Virus record (IMG/VR): IMGVR_UViG_3300023184_000267
Span: 1-39,525 of that record
Strand: one strand, 5' to 3'
Length of the DNA stretch: 39,525 nucleotides
Source of the DNA: a virus
Part shown: in pieces, positions 2,059 through 30,235 of the stretch
Position numbering within the stretch: position 1 is the stretch's first letter
Layout: every line of letters starts with the position of its first letter
Translations under genes and position numbers: made by a program
Notes under the pieces: generated by a model
Seen by the model: the letters and a program-made list of their open reading frames with translations, nothing else
What the model was told of the DNA's origin: nothing
The model's database searches: none

Positions 2059-5000
2059 TTAATTTCCTTCAAGAACAGCTAACCGCTTACGGACTGATTG
2101 CAACTCAGCGACCAAATTTGCGATGACTTCAGCCGTGCCAGCTTGGATGCCTTGATAAATAGGTTTACCATCAGAATCCACTGCATCTTTTTCTCCATAC
2201 ACTGAAGTAGGCGAAACTTCAGCAAATTCGTGAGCAATGAACCCCACGCCCTTAGCACCAGTATCCCAATCAAACGTGCGAGGTTTTAGCGCGTCAATAA
2301 ACGTACCGCTACCAGTAAGGTCTTGAATGTTTGATTTGCGGCGATAGTCGGAAGTTCCGCCATACACCGTAATTGTTCCATTTGTGGTAATTGTGCCAAC
2401 TGAGGTGGTGCTGTAATAGAAATTAGCTAGAGAATAGTTCGTTGCGTTGACTCGCAGAATAAGAGCTTGTCCACCGCCGCCAGAACTTGTCGTGCAATAG
2501 CCAGACAATGCACTACCGTTACCACTAAGTACCGATTCAAGTTGTGAGTTACTATTCCAGCCACCAGAAGTAGTGGTGTTTACCAGCAGATTACCGCTGT
2601 AGTCGATGCGGGCGCGTTCGACGGCATCACCACCGTTTGAAGTGCCAAAAGTTAAGTTATATTGATTTATTCCACCTTGTGTTAGACCTCGTACAAATGG
2701 TGACGAATTTTTGTAAGTTGCATCATTATTGCCAAGACGGAGCGTAGAGCTAATTCCTGTTGAATTATCAGCGCGAGTAATCCAAGCAACTGGGTCAGAG
2801 CTGGCAGCATGAACATTTAACACGCCAACAGGACTCGTCGTCCCAATGCCTACTGACCCACTGCTAGTCGCAAAGTTGGCTCCTGTGGTAGACGACAACG
2901 CACCCGTCACCGCGAGTCCGCTAGAATTTACCTCTGCTCGTTTTACTCCACTAATAATAGACTGAATCGGCTGCGGTGAATACAGGACAGAAGCGTATGC
3001 AGAACTTCCAGTAAAGAATCCACCAGCGGTTGAACCTTCGCAACCAACGTATAAGTCGCCGCTGGTGTTTAAGCAGCGACTATAAGTTGGATTGGTTCCT
3101 AATCCCGTTGGAGTAGCATTAACTCCGAATCCAGTGGCAACAAAGGTGCTCGTCGCGCTCAACGCGCCTGTAACAGCGAGGCTTCCTCCAGAAAGTAAGG
3201 CGGCATCTCCAGATGAATTTAGTAATTTTACCGTGCTACCTTGCAGAATCAAAGGCACATTTGCGCTATCGGCATCGTTTACCGCTGATACGCGAAGCGA
3301 GCTTGAAGCACTATCTACAACGAAATTGTACCCAGAAGCAGCCTGTACGCGCATTTTCTCGGAAACCGGAGCAGCTCCAACACCAAAAGTTCCGGTTACA
3401 AGACCAGTGGAACTCGCGCTCAACGCGCCTGTGACTGCGAGTCCGGTGGAGGAGACTTGAGCAACACCGTTACTAATTTTAACAAGACCACCAGTATCGT
3501 TAATGTCTAGTTGTAGCGCAGCAGAACCACTACGGTCATAAGCACGGACAACACCGCGAGTTTGAGCCGATACATAAAGCATTTCAATGCCTTGACCAGA
3601 TGCAGGAGACGTAGCCGATCCTGTTGTGCGAATGGTATCCGCAATAGATGCAATACCGCTACCAGTAATCGTCGTAAACGCGCCTGTATTAGCCGTAGTT
3701 GCGCCCACCGTGCCGTTGATGTTGATGGACGCCGTGCCACTAGCATTGGTCAGCACAATGGCTGAGGGCGTGCCAAGGGCTGGAGTGACTAGAGTTGGAC
3801 TCGTAGCAAACACCGCCGCGCCGCTACCTGTTTCATCTGTAAGCGCAGCCGAGAGATTAGCCGAGGAGAAAGAGCCGAGAGAGGTAGCGTTGCCTACTGA
3901 CGTAACCGCGCCAGTCAAATTAGCATTTGTCGCGTCATTACCGTTTAGCTTCTGGATAGCTTGCAGAATGCTATCTGTTGCCGCCACTGTGCCCGCGCCG
4001 CTGACATATCCAGTGAGCACTTTAGCAATGACTGGAGCATTGGTTAACGTTGTTGCATTACCCACACTTGTTACATCGCCCGTTAGATTGGCATTGGTAA
4101 CTACCGTAGCCGCAAATGAGCCTGTACCGCTACCTGTGACACCGCCAGTAAGGGTGATGGTCTGATCGCCTGTGTTAGTGCCGCTAGATGTTCCGCTATG
4201 AGTGCCGCTAAGATTGCTACCAGTCACTGCACCAGTAGCCGCGATTGTGCTGCTTGCCGTAACCGTTGTGAAGGCACCCGTAGATGCTGTTCCACTTCCT
4301 ATTGCTGGAGGAGAAGCGAAATTGGGCGTTAATGTAATTGAGGCATTTGCATTGGTGACAGTCATGCCCGTACCAGCCGTAAGCGTAGCATTCTTCCAAA
4401 GACTGGTGGTAGCGTCACGGATGATGAGCGAGCCAGCCACAGGAGTACCCGTAATTTGAACGTCGTGGATTTCGTCTAGCTCGTAGCCATTCTGAATCTT
4501 AACGTAAAGCTCACCATTACCGTTGTTTGCACGTTCTACGATACCGACATAAACCAAATGGTTTGGAGCGTATGGCTTTACGTTGGTAATGCTACCAGCA
4601 GTAGCTCCAAGATAGACGGTATCGCCATCTGTATAGCTACCAAGTGTCAATCCAGTGACTTCACCAAAAAGTGTAATTGTACCTGTACCATTAGCCGCAA
4701 TTGACGCATCGCTAACAACACCAATGGTTTTAGCGGAAGTGGCATCAGACGTATTGAGCGCAAGTTTAACCGACATACGGTTGCCCACTGCTCCAAAGGC
4801 GTAAACCACTTGGCCTAGTGTAATGGCAACGGATTCAGCGTTAGTAACTGTAGCTGTAACAATTTGTGTAGATGTTCCGCCTGTAGCCGCGATGTTAATG
4901 CCGCCAGAACTATTTGTAATAGAAATACCAGAACCAGCCGTAAGCGTATTAGCCGTGTAGCCCGTGCCATTACCAATGAGCACTTGCCCGTTAGCTGGGG

Positions 5001-6237
5001 TTGTATTGACTCCCGTACCACCAGAAGCCGTTCCAATGGGCGTAGAAGCCGTAACTGTCGTAAAAGCACCAGAATTAGCAACAGCCGCCCCAATGGGCGT
5101 ATTGTTGATGGAACCGCCTGTAATAGCTACGCTAGAGGCAGCTTGCGTGCTCATTGTGCCCAATCCGCTAACATCTGTGTTAGGGATGGTGCTGCTAGCC
5201 GTTAAAGCCGCCGTTCCCGTGCCTTTAACGTAACCAGTAAGCGTTGTACTACCCGTACCGCCATTACCAACAACAACAACTCCAGTGACATTACTTGCCG
5301 TTCCAGAGGTGTTTTGATTGAGAGTGGGAAAATCGGCTGCAACAGCAATACCTGGCTGTCCAGTCACTGTGCTGCTCTTGAGAATGCCTGTGCCCAAACC
5401 AATGAGCGCAACGCCATTAATCTTGCCCACTGTGGCTGTAAGCGCACCCGTGCTTCCTGATGCCGTTACGTCGCCTGTAATCGAAATTGTTTGATCGCCC
5501 GTGTTAGTACCGCTAGAGGTGCCAGAAAACGTGCCGTTTTGCGTTGCTAGGGTTCCTAGGCCCAATGCTGTACGAGCATCAGGGGCGTTAGTGGCCCCCG
5601 TGCCGCCGTTAGCCAAAGCCACCGTGCCCGTAACATTGGACGCTGTACCTGTTGTGTTTTGATTGAGCGTTGGGAAGTCCGCCGCCACCGCAATGGAAGG
5701 AACACCTGTAGTCGTTGTGTTCTTGAGGATGCCCGTAGCAAGCCCAGCCAAAGTTGTACCGTTAATCTTTGTAACTGTAGCTGTTAGAACGCCCGCAGAA
5801 GCCGCAGCCGTAGCATCTCCCGTAATACTGATGCTTTGATCGCCTGTATTTGTGCCAGAAGACGTACCACTAAACGTACCGTTTTGAGTAGCCAAACTGC
5901 CTAAACCACTAATTTGAGAAGCCGAATAATCTCCTGTGGTAGCTACAACAGCACCAGTGCGACCAAACACGCTGCTAACGCTATCCGTCAAATCAACCTT
6001 CTGCCAAACAGACCCATTGCTGATAATCCAATCGCCTACAGCAAAATCAATGGAAAACCGTGTACCAGCAACACTTACGACGTAATACCACCCTTTTGTA
6101 GTAGCCGCTGGTGGATTGGCTAATGTTGGCGAATTTGTCGCCGCATCCCAAGTGCCTTTATATGTAACAGAGCCAGTAATTGAACTGGCTAAGATTGTGG
6201 GATTGTAACTTAGGACTTGGTCAAATATGCCAGACAT
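2059..6237 (-). CDS. Tail fibre/appendage protein with C-terminal S74 chaperone-protease
   Basis: 1392 residues dominated by Gly/Thr/Ser/Asn beta repeats typical of trimeric phage fibres. A module of about 115 residues beginning LGxLATQNGTFSGTSSGTN occurs at about residue 112 and again at 227, and the SGTSSGTNTGDQ block appears once more later. Near the end come VGIGTTSP-type fibre repeats and an intramolecular chaperone domain of the peptidase S74 family: S1296-D-Y-R-R-K1301 matches the Ser/Lys pair used for self-cleavage, followed by FIDALKPRTFDW and GFIAHE. The last 97 residues should be released after trimer folding. Likely role: host recognition. The N-terminus (about 110 residues) probably anchors to the tail. 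Confidence 0.9.
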   Translation of the reverse strand: MSGIFDQVLSYNPTILASSITGSVTYKGTWDAATNSPTLANPPAATTKGWYYVVSVAGTRFSIDFAVGDWIISNGSVWQKVDLTDSVSSVFGRTGAVVATTGDYSASQISGLGSLATQNGTFSGTSSGTNTGDQSISITGDATAAASAGVLTATVTKINGTTLAGLATGILKNTTTTGVPSIAVAADFPTLNQNTTGTASNVTGTVALANGGTGATNAPDARTALGLGTLATQNGTFSGTSSGTNTGDQTISITGDVTASGSTGALTATVGKINGVALIGLGTGILKSSTVTGQPGIAVAADFPTLNQNTSGTASNVTGVVVVGNGGTGSTTLTGYVKGTGTAALTASSTIPNTDVSGLGTMSTQAASSVAITGGSINNTPIGAAVANSGAFTTVTASTPIGTASGGTGVNTTPANGQVLIGNGTGYTANTLTAGSGISITNSSGGINIAATGGTSTQIVTATVTNAESVAITLGQVVYAFGAVGNRMSVKLALNTSDATSAKTIGVVSDASIAANGTGTITLFGEVTGLTLGSYTDGDTVYLGATAGSITNVKPYAPNHLVYVGIVERANNGNGELYVKIQNGYELDEIHDVQITGTPVAGSLIIRDATTSLWKNATLTAGTGMTVTNANASITLTPNFASPPAIGSGTASTGAFTTVTASSTIAATGAVTGSNLSGTHSGTSSGTNTGDQTITLTGGVTGSGTGSFAATVVTNANLTGDVTSVGNATTLTNAPVIAKVLTGYVSGAGTVAATDSILQAIQKLNGNDATNANLTGAVTSVGNATSLGSFSSANLSAALTDETGSGAAVFATSPTLVTPALGTPSAIVLTNASGTASININGTVGATTANTGAFTTITGSGIASIADTIRTTGSATSPASGQGIEMLYVSAQTRGVVRAYDRSGSAALQLDINDTGGLVKISNGVAQVSSTGLAVTGALSASSTGLVTGTFGVGAAPVSEKMRVQAASGYNFVVDSASSSLRVSAVNDADSANVPLILQGSTVKLLNSSGDAALLSGGSLAVTGALSATSTFVATGFGVNATPTGLGTNPTYSRCLNTSGDLYVGCEGSTAGGFFTGSSAYASVLYSPQPIQSIISGVKRAEVNSSGLAVTGALSSTTGANFATSSGSVGIGTTSPVGVLNVHAASSDPVAWITRADNSTGISSTLRLGNNDATYKNSSPFVRGLTQGGINQYNLTFGTSNGGDAVERARIDYSGNLLVNTTTSGGWNSNSQLESVLSGNGSALSGYCTTSSGGGGQALILRVNATNYSLANFYYSTTSVGTITTNGTITVYGGTSDYRRKSNIQDLTGSGTFIDALKPRTFDWDTGAKGVGFIAHEFAEVSPTSVYGEKDAVDSDGKPIYQGIQAGTAEVIANLVAELQSVRKRLAVLEGN

Positions 6238-8012: not shown

Positions 8013-8990
8013 TTAGGCAACCGCTGTGATCTTGCCGTGGGCAAGTGGCGAGTAAACCTGGAGGGTGAGAGCAGCGTCAATGAAGCCGCGCTCGCCACCG
8101 CCTTGATTTGGAAGACGGGTGCTACCGATGCTCATCAGCTCAGCGATACCGATGTAGTCTGGGTTGATGAGGTAACCAGTCGCAGCGGAAGGCATACAAG
8201 CTGGGTTACCGTTGATGACTGTGATGAGGCCGAAGTCGCTGTCGTAGGTGTTGACCGAGAGGGTAATCTCTTTGTCGGTCGCCATCTGGTTGACATGGAA
8301 CACGTTCTCGCTGGAGTTACCGTCAGAACGGGCAAAGCCAGAGACGGTGCGACGGAGGGTCGTACCAGCAACGAGGGTGAGGGCGTCCACTGTGCCTGTT
8401 TGCGAGAAGATGGAGGCAACAAGGCTGTTGAACACGGACTCCGTGAGGGTCGTGCCGCTACCGTTGATCGACGCTGTGGGCGTGCGATAGGCCGAAGGAA
8501 CGTCGCTGCCAGGAGTGTTGGAGAGCCACAGACCGAGACCACGCATAGCGTAGGCGGTTGTGCTGCCATCTTCCACAGCGCGGTCTTGCGTACCAGCGAC
8601 GGTCGCTTCGATGTCGCGCTTCATTTCGCGGATGGCTTTCGCCTCGGCTTCAGCAATCTTGGCTGGGCCAACGGACTCGACGGCGTCTTGCAATTGCGAC
8701 ACCATGTAGTTCTTCTGGAACAACTGGACGTAATTGCCGAGACGGGCGCGACCAGAGAATTTGTCCGTGAAGGACGAGATGTCTTGACCTTCGCGAACGC
8801 CAGCAGTGACTGGGGAAGCGAGGGTATCGACTGTCCATTCATTGAATGTCGCAGTGGCTTTGCTCTTTTTAGCGAGCGATGTGATGGGTGTCTCTTCTGG
8901 CGCGAGGATCGTCAGAACGTCTGTGAGGTCTTCGCGGTTAGAAACGCCGGAGCCTGGATTAGTAACGGAATAGGTATTTGAAAAGGCCAT
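8013..8990 (-). CDS. Major capsid protein, DUF5309/SU10-type
   Basis: 325 residues. The N-terminal part (TDVLTILAPEETPITSLAKK, then ATATFNEWTVDTLA, EGQD, RLGNYVQLFQKNYMVS and the KAIREMKRDIEA helix) matches the SU10 major head protein/DUF5309 family, which has the HK97 fold and forms the icosahedral shell. Length is normal for the family. It is flanked by the scaffold gene upstream (12-nt gap) and a strong terminator downstream, consistent with high, separately controlled expression. No SD sequence precedes the ATG; the leader is T/A-rich. Confidence 0.9.
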   Translation of the reverse strand: MAFSNTYSVTNPGSGVSNREDLTDVLTILAPEETPITSLAKKSKATATFNEWTVDTLASPVTAGVREGQDISSFTDKFSGRARLGNYVQLFQKNYMVSQLQDAVESVGPAKIAEAEAKAIREMKRDIEATVAGTQDRAVEDGSTTAYAMRGLGLWLSNTPGSDVPSAYRTPTASINGSGTTLTESVFNSLVASIFSQTGTVDALTLVAGTTLRRTVSGFARSDGNSSENVFHVNQMATDKEITLSVNTYDSDFGLITVINGNPACMPSAATGYLINPDYIGIAELMSIGSTRLPNQGGGERGFIDAALTLQVYSPLAHGKITAVA

Positions 8991-9002
8991 GATAGTAAAA
9001 AA

Positions 9003-10088
9003 TTAAGATTTAGTGTGTTGAAGAGCACGAAGTTTTGTGAAGTCCTTATAACTAGACGATTTTCCAAATCGTTCACTGAGGTCTTTCAAAGCCTTGTTCT
9101 GACGAACTTCTGGTTTGAGGGAGTCGGAAGACTGGTTAATAATTGGGCTGTTCGGAGCCAGTTTAACGGATGGTTTAGCATCTACTGGCCGACGAGCATA
9201 CAAACTATTAGCCGCATGAGCTAAGAGATACGGGATTTGTGGAGCCAAGTCAGGTAGAGCCTTCTCTAAACCCTTCAGTCGCTCATCACTCATCATAGAC
9301 TCGTATTGCTTACGGATGTCGTTGTCGTCGCCCTGCATCCAAGAAAGTTCCGATTTGGAACGCTCAATAAGGGCTTGACGCAAAACCGTGCGGTCTTGAG
9401 CCAGTTTAATTTCCTTATGTTGAGCTGGAAGATAGGTATCTCGCGCTTTGCGAGCTTCCCGTGTCTTTTCCTTGATTTCGCGCTTGGTGTATTCCTTGCC
9501 ATCGACGTTAGCAACAACGTCGTCAGCAGCAAGGTCTTCACTTCGGTCGAGAATGTTTTCACCCCATTCAATGACTTCGTTCACCTGAGTAAACTTGGCT
9601 TGCAAGTCTTCTGATGTAGCAAGGTCTGAATATGGGTTATTTACCACTTTAGCTTCAAGTGGCTTCTCGTCGCGGCGGGCAACTTCAGCTTGGAGTTGTG
9701 CCAATTGCTCTTCAGCAGCGCGGCGCTTGGCGGTGAGTTCACCAAACCTAGCAACAGCTTTGCTTCCGAGTTTTGACGCAAGCTCTTTAAGCTCCGCTTC
9801 ACTCATGTTTTCTATCTCAACGTCCTTAGAAAGAACTTTGGCTTCTTCTTGAACATCGGCTGATGGGCTTTCTGGAACAGGCTCTTGATGCTGTTCAGTA
9901 GGTTCCGCAGCTTCTGGCTCAGGAATAGGCTTCTCCTCAACTGGGGGTGGCGGGGGCGATTTTTGCGCCTTAGCAGCCTCCATTTGGGCTTTATACCTTT
10001 GAGTAACAAAATTACTCGCAGATATGTTGGATGTGTTCACTGGTTTTTGGGAGGCTCCAGCGTTAGCCATTTGGACTTCTGTTGACAT
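9003..10088 (-). CDS. Probable scaffolding/prohead core protein (361 aa)
   Basis: Directly upstream of the capsid gene. Composition is typical of scaffolds: Pro/Glu-rich disordered N-terminus (SPPPPPVEEKPIPEPEAAEP), then long charged coiled coils (about residues 95-150 and 190-260, for example AKRRAAEEQLAQLQAEVARR) and a Lys/Leu-rich C-terminus that could contact capsid. It would guide prohead assembly and then leave. The start has one of the few SD-like sequences here (AAGGA, about 8 nt before ATG). Identified by position and composition. Confidence 0.75.
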   Translation of the reverse strand: MSTEVQMANAGASQKPVNTSNISASNFVTQRYKAQMEAAKAQKSPPPPPVEEKPIPEPEAAEPTEQHQEPVPESPSADVQEEAKVLSKDVEIENMSEAELKELASKLGSKAVARFGELTAKRRAAEEQLAQLQAEVARRDEKPLEAKVVNNPYSDLATSEDLQAKFTQVNEVIEWGENILDRSEDLAADDVVANVDGKEYTKREIKEKTREARKARDTYLPAQHKEIKLAQDRTVLRQALIERSKSELSWMQGDDNDIRKQYESMMSDERLKGLEKALPDLAPQIPYLLAHAANSLYARRPVDAKPSVKLAPNSPIINQSSDSLKPEVRQNKALKDLSERFGKSSSYKDFTKLRALQHTKS

Positions 10089-19415: not shown

Positions 19416-19435
19416 ACCTATTGACAGACCTCATG

Positions 19436-19444
19436 TGATACAAT
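19436..19444 (+). promoter_or_regulatory. Extended -10 promoter for the 19.5-kb RNA
   Basis: TGA-TACAAT at 19436-19444 is an extended -10 with five of six consensus matches, resembling the minus-strand elements at 10140 and 7980. TTGACA lies at 19421-19426 but only 12 bases away, too close to act as a standard -35. Predicted start about 19451. Confidence 0.6.
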
Positions 19445-19450
19445 CCCCTA

Positions 19451-19559
19451 GTCCAATTAGTCGGTGACTCGACTTGAAGCAATTTCCGTATTATCTCCCG
19501 TAAAAGGTGGTTAATACACCGAGAAGCCTCAGAGCGAGTCACCGCTCTGGGGCTTTCTT
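19451..19559 (+). ncRNA. Short RNA/leader with terminator and self-complementary switch
   Basis: About 110 nt from the predicted start to the T-tract, with no gene inside. CGGTGACTCG (19462-19471) is the exact reverse complement of CGAGTCACCG (19535-19544), which is the loop and inner stem of the terminator. Pairing of the two would open the terminator, so this is either an attenuator controlling the gene at 19560 and the region beyond, or a small RNA closed by a pseudoknot. No known riboswitch or tRNA motif is seen. Confidence 0.6.
19524..19559 (+). terminator. Strong intrinsic terminator directly before a start codon
   Basis: AAGCCTCAGAGCG (19524-19536) pairs over 13 positions (one G-T) with CGCTCTGGGGCTT (19543-19555), loop AGTCAC, followed by TTTCTT. 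The next ATG begins at 19560, immediately after the T-tract, so the hairpin would also hide the ribosome-binding region of any read-through transcript. Confidence 0.85.
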
Positions 19560-19820
19560 ATGTCCACAATACAAATTCCACGCATTACTGACATCACGGG
19601 CCGCAAGTCCGCGCAGGATAGTGCTGCGGATAAGGAATGGTCTAAAGCTGCTTCAGAGTATCAATTCGCTAAAGAGCGAGACAAGCAGTTGAAGCAAGCA
19701 AATCAAGAGTTGGCTAAGTTAAGCCATAAACGTAAAAAGTTTAAGACTAAAAAACCCGCTAATCCGTCTTGGAAGCGAAACAAATACAAGGAGGTAATGG
19801 AAAAAACCAGAAGTTTCTAA
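19560..19820 (+). CDS. Lysine-rich small protein (86 aa), putative
   Basis: Starts right after a terminator hairpin, so expression needs read-through. The sequence looks coding: an N-terminal part (TIQIPRITDITGRK), a charged coiled coil (SEYQFAKERDKQLKQANQEL) and a very basic tail (HKRKKFKTKKPANPSWKR) that should bind nucleic acid. The stop borders the structured non-coding region, which suggests a link with that RNA, such as a dedicated RNA-binding partner (inference). It could also be a chance reading frame inside a larger RNA. Confidence 0.55.
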   Translation: MSTIQIPRITDITGRKSAQDSAADKEWSKAASEYQFAKERDKQLKQANQELAKLSHKRKKFKTKKPANPSWKRNKYKEVMEKTRSF

Positions 19821-20290
19821 AACGTGTCTGCCAATCGTCTAAGGGACTCCCCTTAAGATCGCTAGGGACAGACTAAGCCAAAATCGGGCATTACCCACGG
19901 CATCCCTCAAATTACGCACCATGTTTATCATGGGCGTTGTTCATACTCAGCGAAACCAATAAGCTCAGTATTCTAGCGCGGCCTTGAAATTGTTAGACCA
20001 AGCCGCTTAATAAGGCGTCGTAAGACGTGAACTCTTATCTTCAGGGAAAGCTTTGAAACCTCGGGCAATGGCCTACTAGCGGGGGGATAAGGCGACAAGG
20101 GACTCATCCTCATATAACGGGAGTTCTTTTACAGCAGTTCATTCCAGCAATGGGTGAACTGTGCTCAAAGGGTTCTTTCCTATATTCGGGAGTGTCTTTA
20201 CTTCTGGACTACAAGCCGCGAAATGGAAAGCGGCACAGCAGGAAAACCTCAAGAATACATTTGACTCATGCGGTTTGGAAAAGAAGAAAT
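19821..20290 (+). ncRNA. Candidate large structured RNA (about 470 nt)
   Basis: No gene in 553 bases, but many compact hairpins in order: GTCTGCC/GG-A-CAGAC (19826-19873) around TAAGGG/CCCTTA; ACGC-A-CCATG/CATGGGCGT (19914-19937); ATACT-AGC/GCT-AGTAT (19943-19971); GCGG-CTTG/CAAGCCGC (19978-20006); CGTC-GTAA-GACG (20016-20027); GAACT/AGTTC (20029/20122) enclosing CTTATC/GATAAG (20034/20086); CAGTTCA-TCCA-GCAA-TGGG-TGAACTG (20135-20161); GCCGC/GCGGC (20215-20234). Two loops are GNRA. I cannot match it to tmRNA, RNase P or a group I intron; the class of large ornate phage RNAs (GOLLD, ROOL) is the nearest idea. Ends and strand are inferred. Confidence 0.6.
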
Positions 20291-30162: not shown

Positions 30163-30235
30163 GCTTCAATAGCTCAGTTGGTAGAGCACTAGTTTTGTAA
30201 ACTAGCGGTCGTTGGTTCAAATCCGACTTGAAGCT
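30163..30235 (+). tRNA. tRNA-Thr (anticodon UGU)
   Basis: Canonical 73-nt cloverleaf: acceptor GCTTCAA/TTGAAGC, D-arm GCTC-AGTTGGTA-GAGC, anticodon arm CTAGT-TTTGTAA-ACTAG with TGT anticodon, variable CGGTC, T-arm GTTGG-TTCAAAT-CCGAC, discriminator T. CCA is not encoded. Reads ACA (threonine). It lies 3 bases after the tRNA-like element and may supplement host tRNA supply. Confidence 0.95.

Follow-up and report, generated by a model that had tools for sequence, protein, structure and literature searches.

The kissing interactions of ColE1 RNA I with RNA II and of TAR with TAR* are intermolecular and involve fully complementary loops of 7 and 6 nt, respectively. In phages, RNA-RNA pairing controls early termination in the immunity systems based on the P4 CI RNA and the P1 c4 RNA. 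To our knowledge, neither hairpin of the guanidine-II riboswitch is a terminator. Its loop interface comprises only two base pairs and is ligand-dependent (PMC7357161). The guanidine-IV riboswitch (mepA) has a kissing loop that interferes with the terminator stem and favours read-through (PMC11611296). In transcription attenuators of the pT181 type, recognition of the 5' hairpin takes place through a loop-loop kiss, and loop and stem mutations change the specificity (PMC3753616). Conserved loop-loop contacts are also present in the phage RNAs phi29 pRNA, GOLLD and ROOL (PMC7357161, PMC12286853).

The locus considered here lies in a 39.5-kb IMG/VR virus record (IMGVR_UViG_3300023184_000267), all 39,525 nt of which were analysed and are referred to below as the window; it carries genes for a major capsid protein, a terminase and a DnaB-like helicase. 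The element consists of a promoter and a leader with three hairpins, H1, H2 and H3, the last of which is an intrinsic terminator with a loop complementary to that of H1. Its nearest precedent is the guanidine-IV riboswitch, in which a kissing loop likewise lies within the leader. However, the loops of the element are 6–7 nt long, fully complementary and variable in sequence, leaving no conserved ligand site in them; they are also separated by ~72 nt with a middle hairpin, and a non-coding RNA lies downstream. No guanidine riboswitch was among the Rfam matches listed. With guanidine-II the element shares two hairpins of one RNA and a proposed kiss in cis. In the pT181 type a separate antisense RNA is the partner, a part that falls here to the terminator hairpin of the element's own transcript; no antisense gene was seen, and no sigma-70-like promoter was reported on the minus strand over the leader, where weak promoters could escape. 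Since the loop sequence is free to vary and neither the element nor the large RNA downstream has an Rfam match, the element is a member of neither the guanidine-IV nor the pT181 type. The loops of ColE1 RNA I-RNA II and TAR-TAR* have the same sizes as those of its 7-nt (class B) and 6-nt (class A) forms, respectively, but in those systems no terminator kisses its own leader. The contacts of phi29 pRNA, GOLLD and ROOL differ in being intermolecular and not linked to a terminator, and the covariance models of GOLLD, ROOL, OLE and pRNA gave no match. RNA immunity of the P4 and P1 kind is set apart by the lack of recognised prophage signs in the window, where neither an integrase nor a lysogeny repressor was recognised among the proteins tested.

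Phage C75C1 is the nearest isolate-type record that was found; its major capsid protein shares 56% identity with that of the window (positions 8013–8990). A tRNA-Thr (TGT) gene (30163–30235) lies close to the end of the rightward gene block. Bacterial genomes yielded a single match, a remote helicase (27% identity). BLASTN searches against isolated phages, seeded with the window region and with the leader plus large RNA of two relatives, gave no match. The proteins adjoining the element have no close relatives in IMG/VR viral contigs; therefore, the helicase was used as bait instead and led to 31 related loci. Additional contigs came from scans for terminators and for a piece of the downstream RNA. 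Matches to the pattern CGACTTGAAGCAATTT in viral contigs were mostly chance occurrences in coding sequence and contributed one new contig. A generic kissing-terminator scanner missed known cases and was left out of all counts. The element family is carried by aquatic bacterial viruses. One relative, L002, possesses upstream of its replication genes (4850–5090) a gene with dense GCTGCG(G)-type repeats encoding an alanine-rich repetitive stretch.

The preliminary description of this DNA had proposed an extended -10 followed by about 110 nt ending in a strong intrinsic terminator, with a gene starting directly after the T-tract. All of these are present (Table 1): the leader, which ends in the terminator, measures ~109 nt, the H3 stem is followed by a U-rich tail, and an ATG ORF begins at the next position. 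The RNA is likely to start at ~19450–19451. A 10-mer at 19462–19471 had further been described as the exact reverse complement of 19535–19544. This is confirmed, and both are hairpin loops: CGGTGACTCG is found exactly at these two sites, on the plus and minus strand, respectively, and nowhere else in the window, where one further match has a single mismatch. Each site comprises a loop (of H1 or H3) plus its two closing pairs, so that every base of one 6-nt loop has its complement in the other, and complementarity reaches 2 bp into each stem. The leader fold beats all 200 shuffles (z −4.6).

Table 1. Coordinates of the element and of the adjoining downstream features in the window.
Feature	Position	Strand	Basis and conservation
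Promoter: TTGACA 19421–19426, 12-bp gap, extended -10 TG-a-TACAAT 19436–19444	19421–19444	+	Sequence; conserved in close relatives
H1, 5' hairpin AGTCG-[GTGACT]-CGACT; kissing loop 19464–19469	19459–19474	+	Stem kept in 5/5 class A rows; loop changes only jointly with H3 loop
H2, middle hairpin, sequence not conserved	19488–19517	+	In class A, pairing in 82% of cells and a two-sided change at one pair
H3, intrinsic-terminator hairpin, 13-bp stem; kissing loop AGTCAC 19537–19542	19524–19555	+	All class A cells paired; two stem pairs with compensatory changes
U-rich terminator tail TTTCTT	19554–19559	+	U-rich tail retained in all 28 places
86-aa basic orphan ORF (ATG) between terminator and large RNA	19560–19820	+	This phage only; no relatives or families
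Large structured RNA of the window, ending in hairpin GCCGC...GCGGC 20215–20234	19821–20234	+	Borders inferred from relatives; 3' part aligns with L002, L006 and L008

The TTGACA box is placed 12 bp, not 17, upstream of the -10. The pattern TTGAC-N10-TGNTANNNT stands directly 5' of the element in every close relative holding it, and is a unique site within the window. Among close relatives the bases between TTGAC(A) and the extended -10 vary and the spacing stays at 12 bp. This spacing differs from that of sigma-70 promoters, and we take it to recall activator-box promoters, such as the middle promoters of T4. The promoters of L018 (4656–4700) and L012 (5683–5730) are identical up to CCCCT, after which one continues into a class A and the other into a class B RNA. 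From these sequences the RNA cassette seems to have been exchanged right at the transcription start.

The promoter pattern with H1, H2 and H3 behind it occurs in 27 of the 28 sources that reach the place (helicase identity of at least 76%, or the window itself), in 28 copies altogether; the sources without the element begin or stop too near the helicase. All 28 copies have H1 and H3 loops that are exact reverse complements of each other. In class A the loops are 6 nt long (GTGACT in the window, ATGACG, ATGACA and CTGACA) and sit on the H1 stem AGTCG/CGACT, and class B has 7-nt loops (GAACAAG, GTACTAG, GAATCAG, GTACAAG and GAACTAG) on AGCT/AGCT or AGCC. A further allele, GTTCAAG/CTTGAAC in L131, is also perfect and was found via the downstream RNA, not selected by its loops. 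The total comes to at least 30 related IMG/VR contigs with 27 distinct RNAs and 10 loop alleles, none of them imperfect. Three more distant loci (64–65% helicase identity) add an eleventh perfect pair, CTGAAGG/CCTTCAG, in L029 and L030, and the only imperfect case, L028, in which GTTGC/GCAAC is followed by a mismatch after five pairs. Loss of complementarity with the terminator retained, the observation that the preliminary description had set against its own proposal, was thus seen in this one distant relative only. The loop sequence itself is not conserved, there being eleven different loop pairs. The contig IMGVR_UViG_3300020042_011731 (L009/L040) was considered as a phage with two alleles and rejected; it joins two ~80–85% identical phage segments head-to-head and is probably an assembly chimera.

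Comparison of related phages for compensatory changes in the two 10-mers had been suggested as a check, and such changes were found. All 119 loop-loop cells of the class B alignment (17 rows) are standard pairs, and three of the seven loop pairs vary, always on both sides; the covariation score is 0.466, as compared to 0.142 for shuffled and at most 0.069 for slid alignments. In class A (5 rows) 100% of the loop-loop cells are paired and two pairs have changed two-sidedly. All loop changes are two-sided Watson-Crick changes. On a class B backbone tree built with the loops left out, the three variable loop pairs require at least 2, 4 and 5 changes. Selection maintains the exact complementarity of the H1 and H3 loops.

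Class B complementarity covers the loops exactly and goes no further, with the H1 and H3 stems kept; in class A it extends 1–2 bp past the loops. Two hairpins with complementary loops, preserved stems and pairing confined to the loops are what defines a kissing loop, and class B conforms to this exactly. An extended antiterminator duplex was also considered and rejected as weak and uncompensated: pairing between the 3' flank of H1 and the 5' arm of H3 is slightly above that of shuffled flanks on average (individual p about 0.02–0.3), and the invariant arm shows no change to match the drift of the flank. Therefore, selection acts on the loop-loop pairing and, because class B complementarity ends at the loop edges, the conserved contact is a kissing loop rather than a long duplex. 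Of the antiterminator or pseudoknot originally envisaged, the attenuator anatomy and the conserved loop-loop pairing stand, but the 7-nt class does not preserve pairing outside the loops.

Folding of transcripts of increasing length predicted that, once the H3 loop is out, it pairs with H1 in the minimum-energy fold of all 23 RNAs. The loop pairing persisted until at least 6 nt of the H3 3' arm had been made, and at 10 nt 12 of the 23 RNAs had flipped to the terminator; the folding program cannot score pseudoknots, and the true kissing state lies outside these energies. This folding order follows partly from any loop complementarity. In these models, the interval between emergence of the H3 loop and synthesis of the 3' arm is when the contact could influence termination.

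The switch had been expected to control the gene at 19560 and the structured RNA beyond. The RNA is conserved, but the ORF is absent from the relatives, in which no gene directly follows the terminator and a structured RNA of ~300–330 nt starts at once, ending in the hairpin CTAGCCGC...GCGGC. Its 5' domain contains a pseudoknot, of four types, that covaries perfectly in 27 of 27 copies tested. The window RNA is a divergent, longer version, and the 86-aa ORF occupies the place of its 5' domain. Because the relatives have structured RNA after the terminator, in the place taken by the ORF in the window, it is most likely that the element is the control region for a non-coding RNA and that the ORF was inserted there in this phage. 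Neither the 86-aa ORF nor one of 111 aa has relatives in viral contigs, and in L011 a 95-aa ORF that spans the large RNA was taken as chance, since it is interrupted in most relatives. A strong second terminator follows the large RNA in L009, L015, L022, L023 and L024 (from sequence; scanned in L024), and in L029 the end hairpin is itself terminator-like. The large RNA (window 19821–20234; L011 about 8729–9036; L018 about 4790–5090) has a two-fold internal repeat of an AUGG-type hairpin followed by a tag. In type I both tags change together and are the same in both copies: TTTGGAAGC, TTTGGCAGC, TTTGGAAAC or TTAAGCCAC. Complements of these repeated tags revealed no conserved full-length partner.

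As anatomy, an attenuator is well supported. The terminator lies between a promoter, the only conserved one, and the sequence to be controlled, the structured RNA with its covarying pseudoknot; part of the terminator also takes part in a selected alternative pairing, that of the covarying H1 and H3 loops, beyond which selection is not clear. We lean towards regarding the element as an attenuator of transcription that works in cis through a kissing loop and belongs to a non-coding RNA operon of the phage. Starting at its one dedicated promoter, polymerase would make H1, then H2 and then the terminator hairpin H3, and the H3 loop, on emerging, would pair with that of H1 while the 3' arm of H3 is still unmade. 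Which comes first, this contact or the closing of H3, would set the fraction of polymerases that stop or continue; stopping would leave a closed RNA of ~109 nt, and continuing would yield the structured RNA of ~300–330 nt (longer in the window). We infer that the pairing is intramolecular and acts on termination, and the same applies to any signal involved. By analogy with guanidine-IV, the contact would more likely promote read-through. It counts against the attenuator that no ligand, protein or condition flipping the switch was found.

With class B complementarity limited to the loops, the kiss could exist side by side with H1 and H3 in that class, as a kissing helix of 6–7 bp need not melt H3. 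The contact could thus be a structural lock without a switch, holding together the two ends of a stable, terminated ~109-nt RNA or serving as a tertiary contact in a larger non-coding RNA, with termination constitutive or irrelevant. Restriction of the complementarity to the loops, with both stems preserved, agrees with such a lock, as does the closeness in energy of the hairpin and long-range folds, since the kiss would add to the hairpin state. Kissing loops are conserved structural contacts in GOLLD, ROOL and OLE (PMC12286853). Nevertheless, we consider the lock rather unlikely: a U-rich tail typical of intrinsic terminators follows H3 in all copies even though its sequence drifts, and the border of the downstream RNA falls exactly at H3, an argument for a role in termination.

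The same complementarity might operate in trans, the H3 loop of the terminated RNA kissing the H1 loop of other nascent transcripts or building head-to-tail oligomers, as an allele-specific feedback or a barrier between co-infecting phages. An RNA that oligomerises by two complementary loops of its own is known in phi29 pRNA (PMC7357161). Specificity of this kind is suggested by the near-isogenic L027/L109 and L077, which differ by one indel in 90 backbone positions against two compensated changes per loop (GAATCAG in L027, GAACTAG in L077), and by non-cognate loops, which pair much more weakly in the 7-nt class. The distribution of the alleles over the helicase tree also resembles a shuffled one (17 changes versus a shuffled mean of 17.9), but this scatter may be due to ordinary phage recombination. 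Some alleles differ by one base only, and cis pairing across ~72 nt should outcompete pairing in trans. Furthermore, the loops do not evolve faster overall than the unpaired backbone (1.6 versus 1.9 changes per site), for which reason hypervariable loops were rejected as proof of diversifying selection, striking as the near-isogenic pair is. Action in trans is therefore unlikely. In one form of it, for which we see little probability, the terminator would be its own antisense RNA, the short transcript recognising, by its loop, the 5' hairpin on further transcripts that carry the same allele. If true, feedback on the large RNA would be allele-specific, and co-infecting phages, whether their loops are the same or different, would face a barrier or reach a truce. 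P4/P1-like targets in trans, sought as exact copies of the window 10-mer, were not found beyond the two sites of the element.

It is very improbable that the inverted repeats are two half-sites of one phage DNA-binding protein. Repeats bound by one protein would covary likewise, and HTH proteins are encoded near the element, but the matches coincide exactly with hairpin loops and are strictly perfect in 27 of 27 RNAs, there is no third exact copy in the window, and the spacing, which ranges from 71 to 78 nt, shows no helical phasing. A chance match in one phage, which has nothing beyond the single 10-mer in its favour, is refuted by conservation with compensatory change in every close relative holding the element and has practically no probability left.

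Eleven matched, mostly specific kissing-loop pairs within one terminator scaffold constitute a natural series on loop contacts and intrinsic termination. RNAs that are nearly identical except for their loop pairs prompt one to ask why specificity switches, and the element shows where an undescribed structured phage RNA would be controlled.
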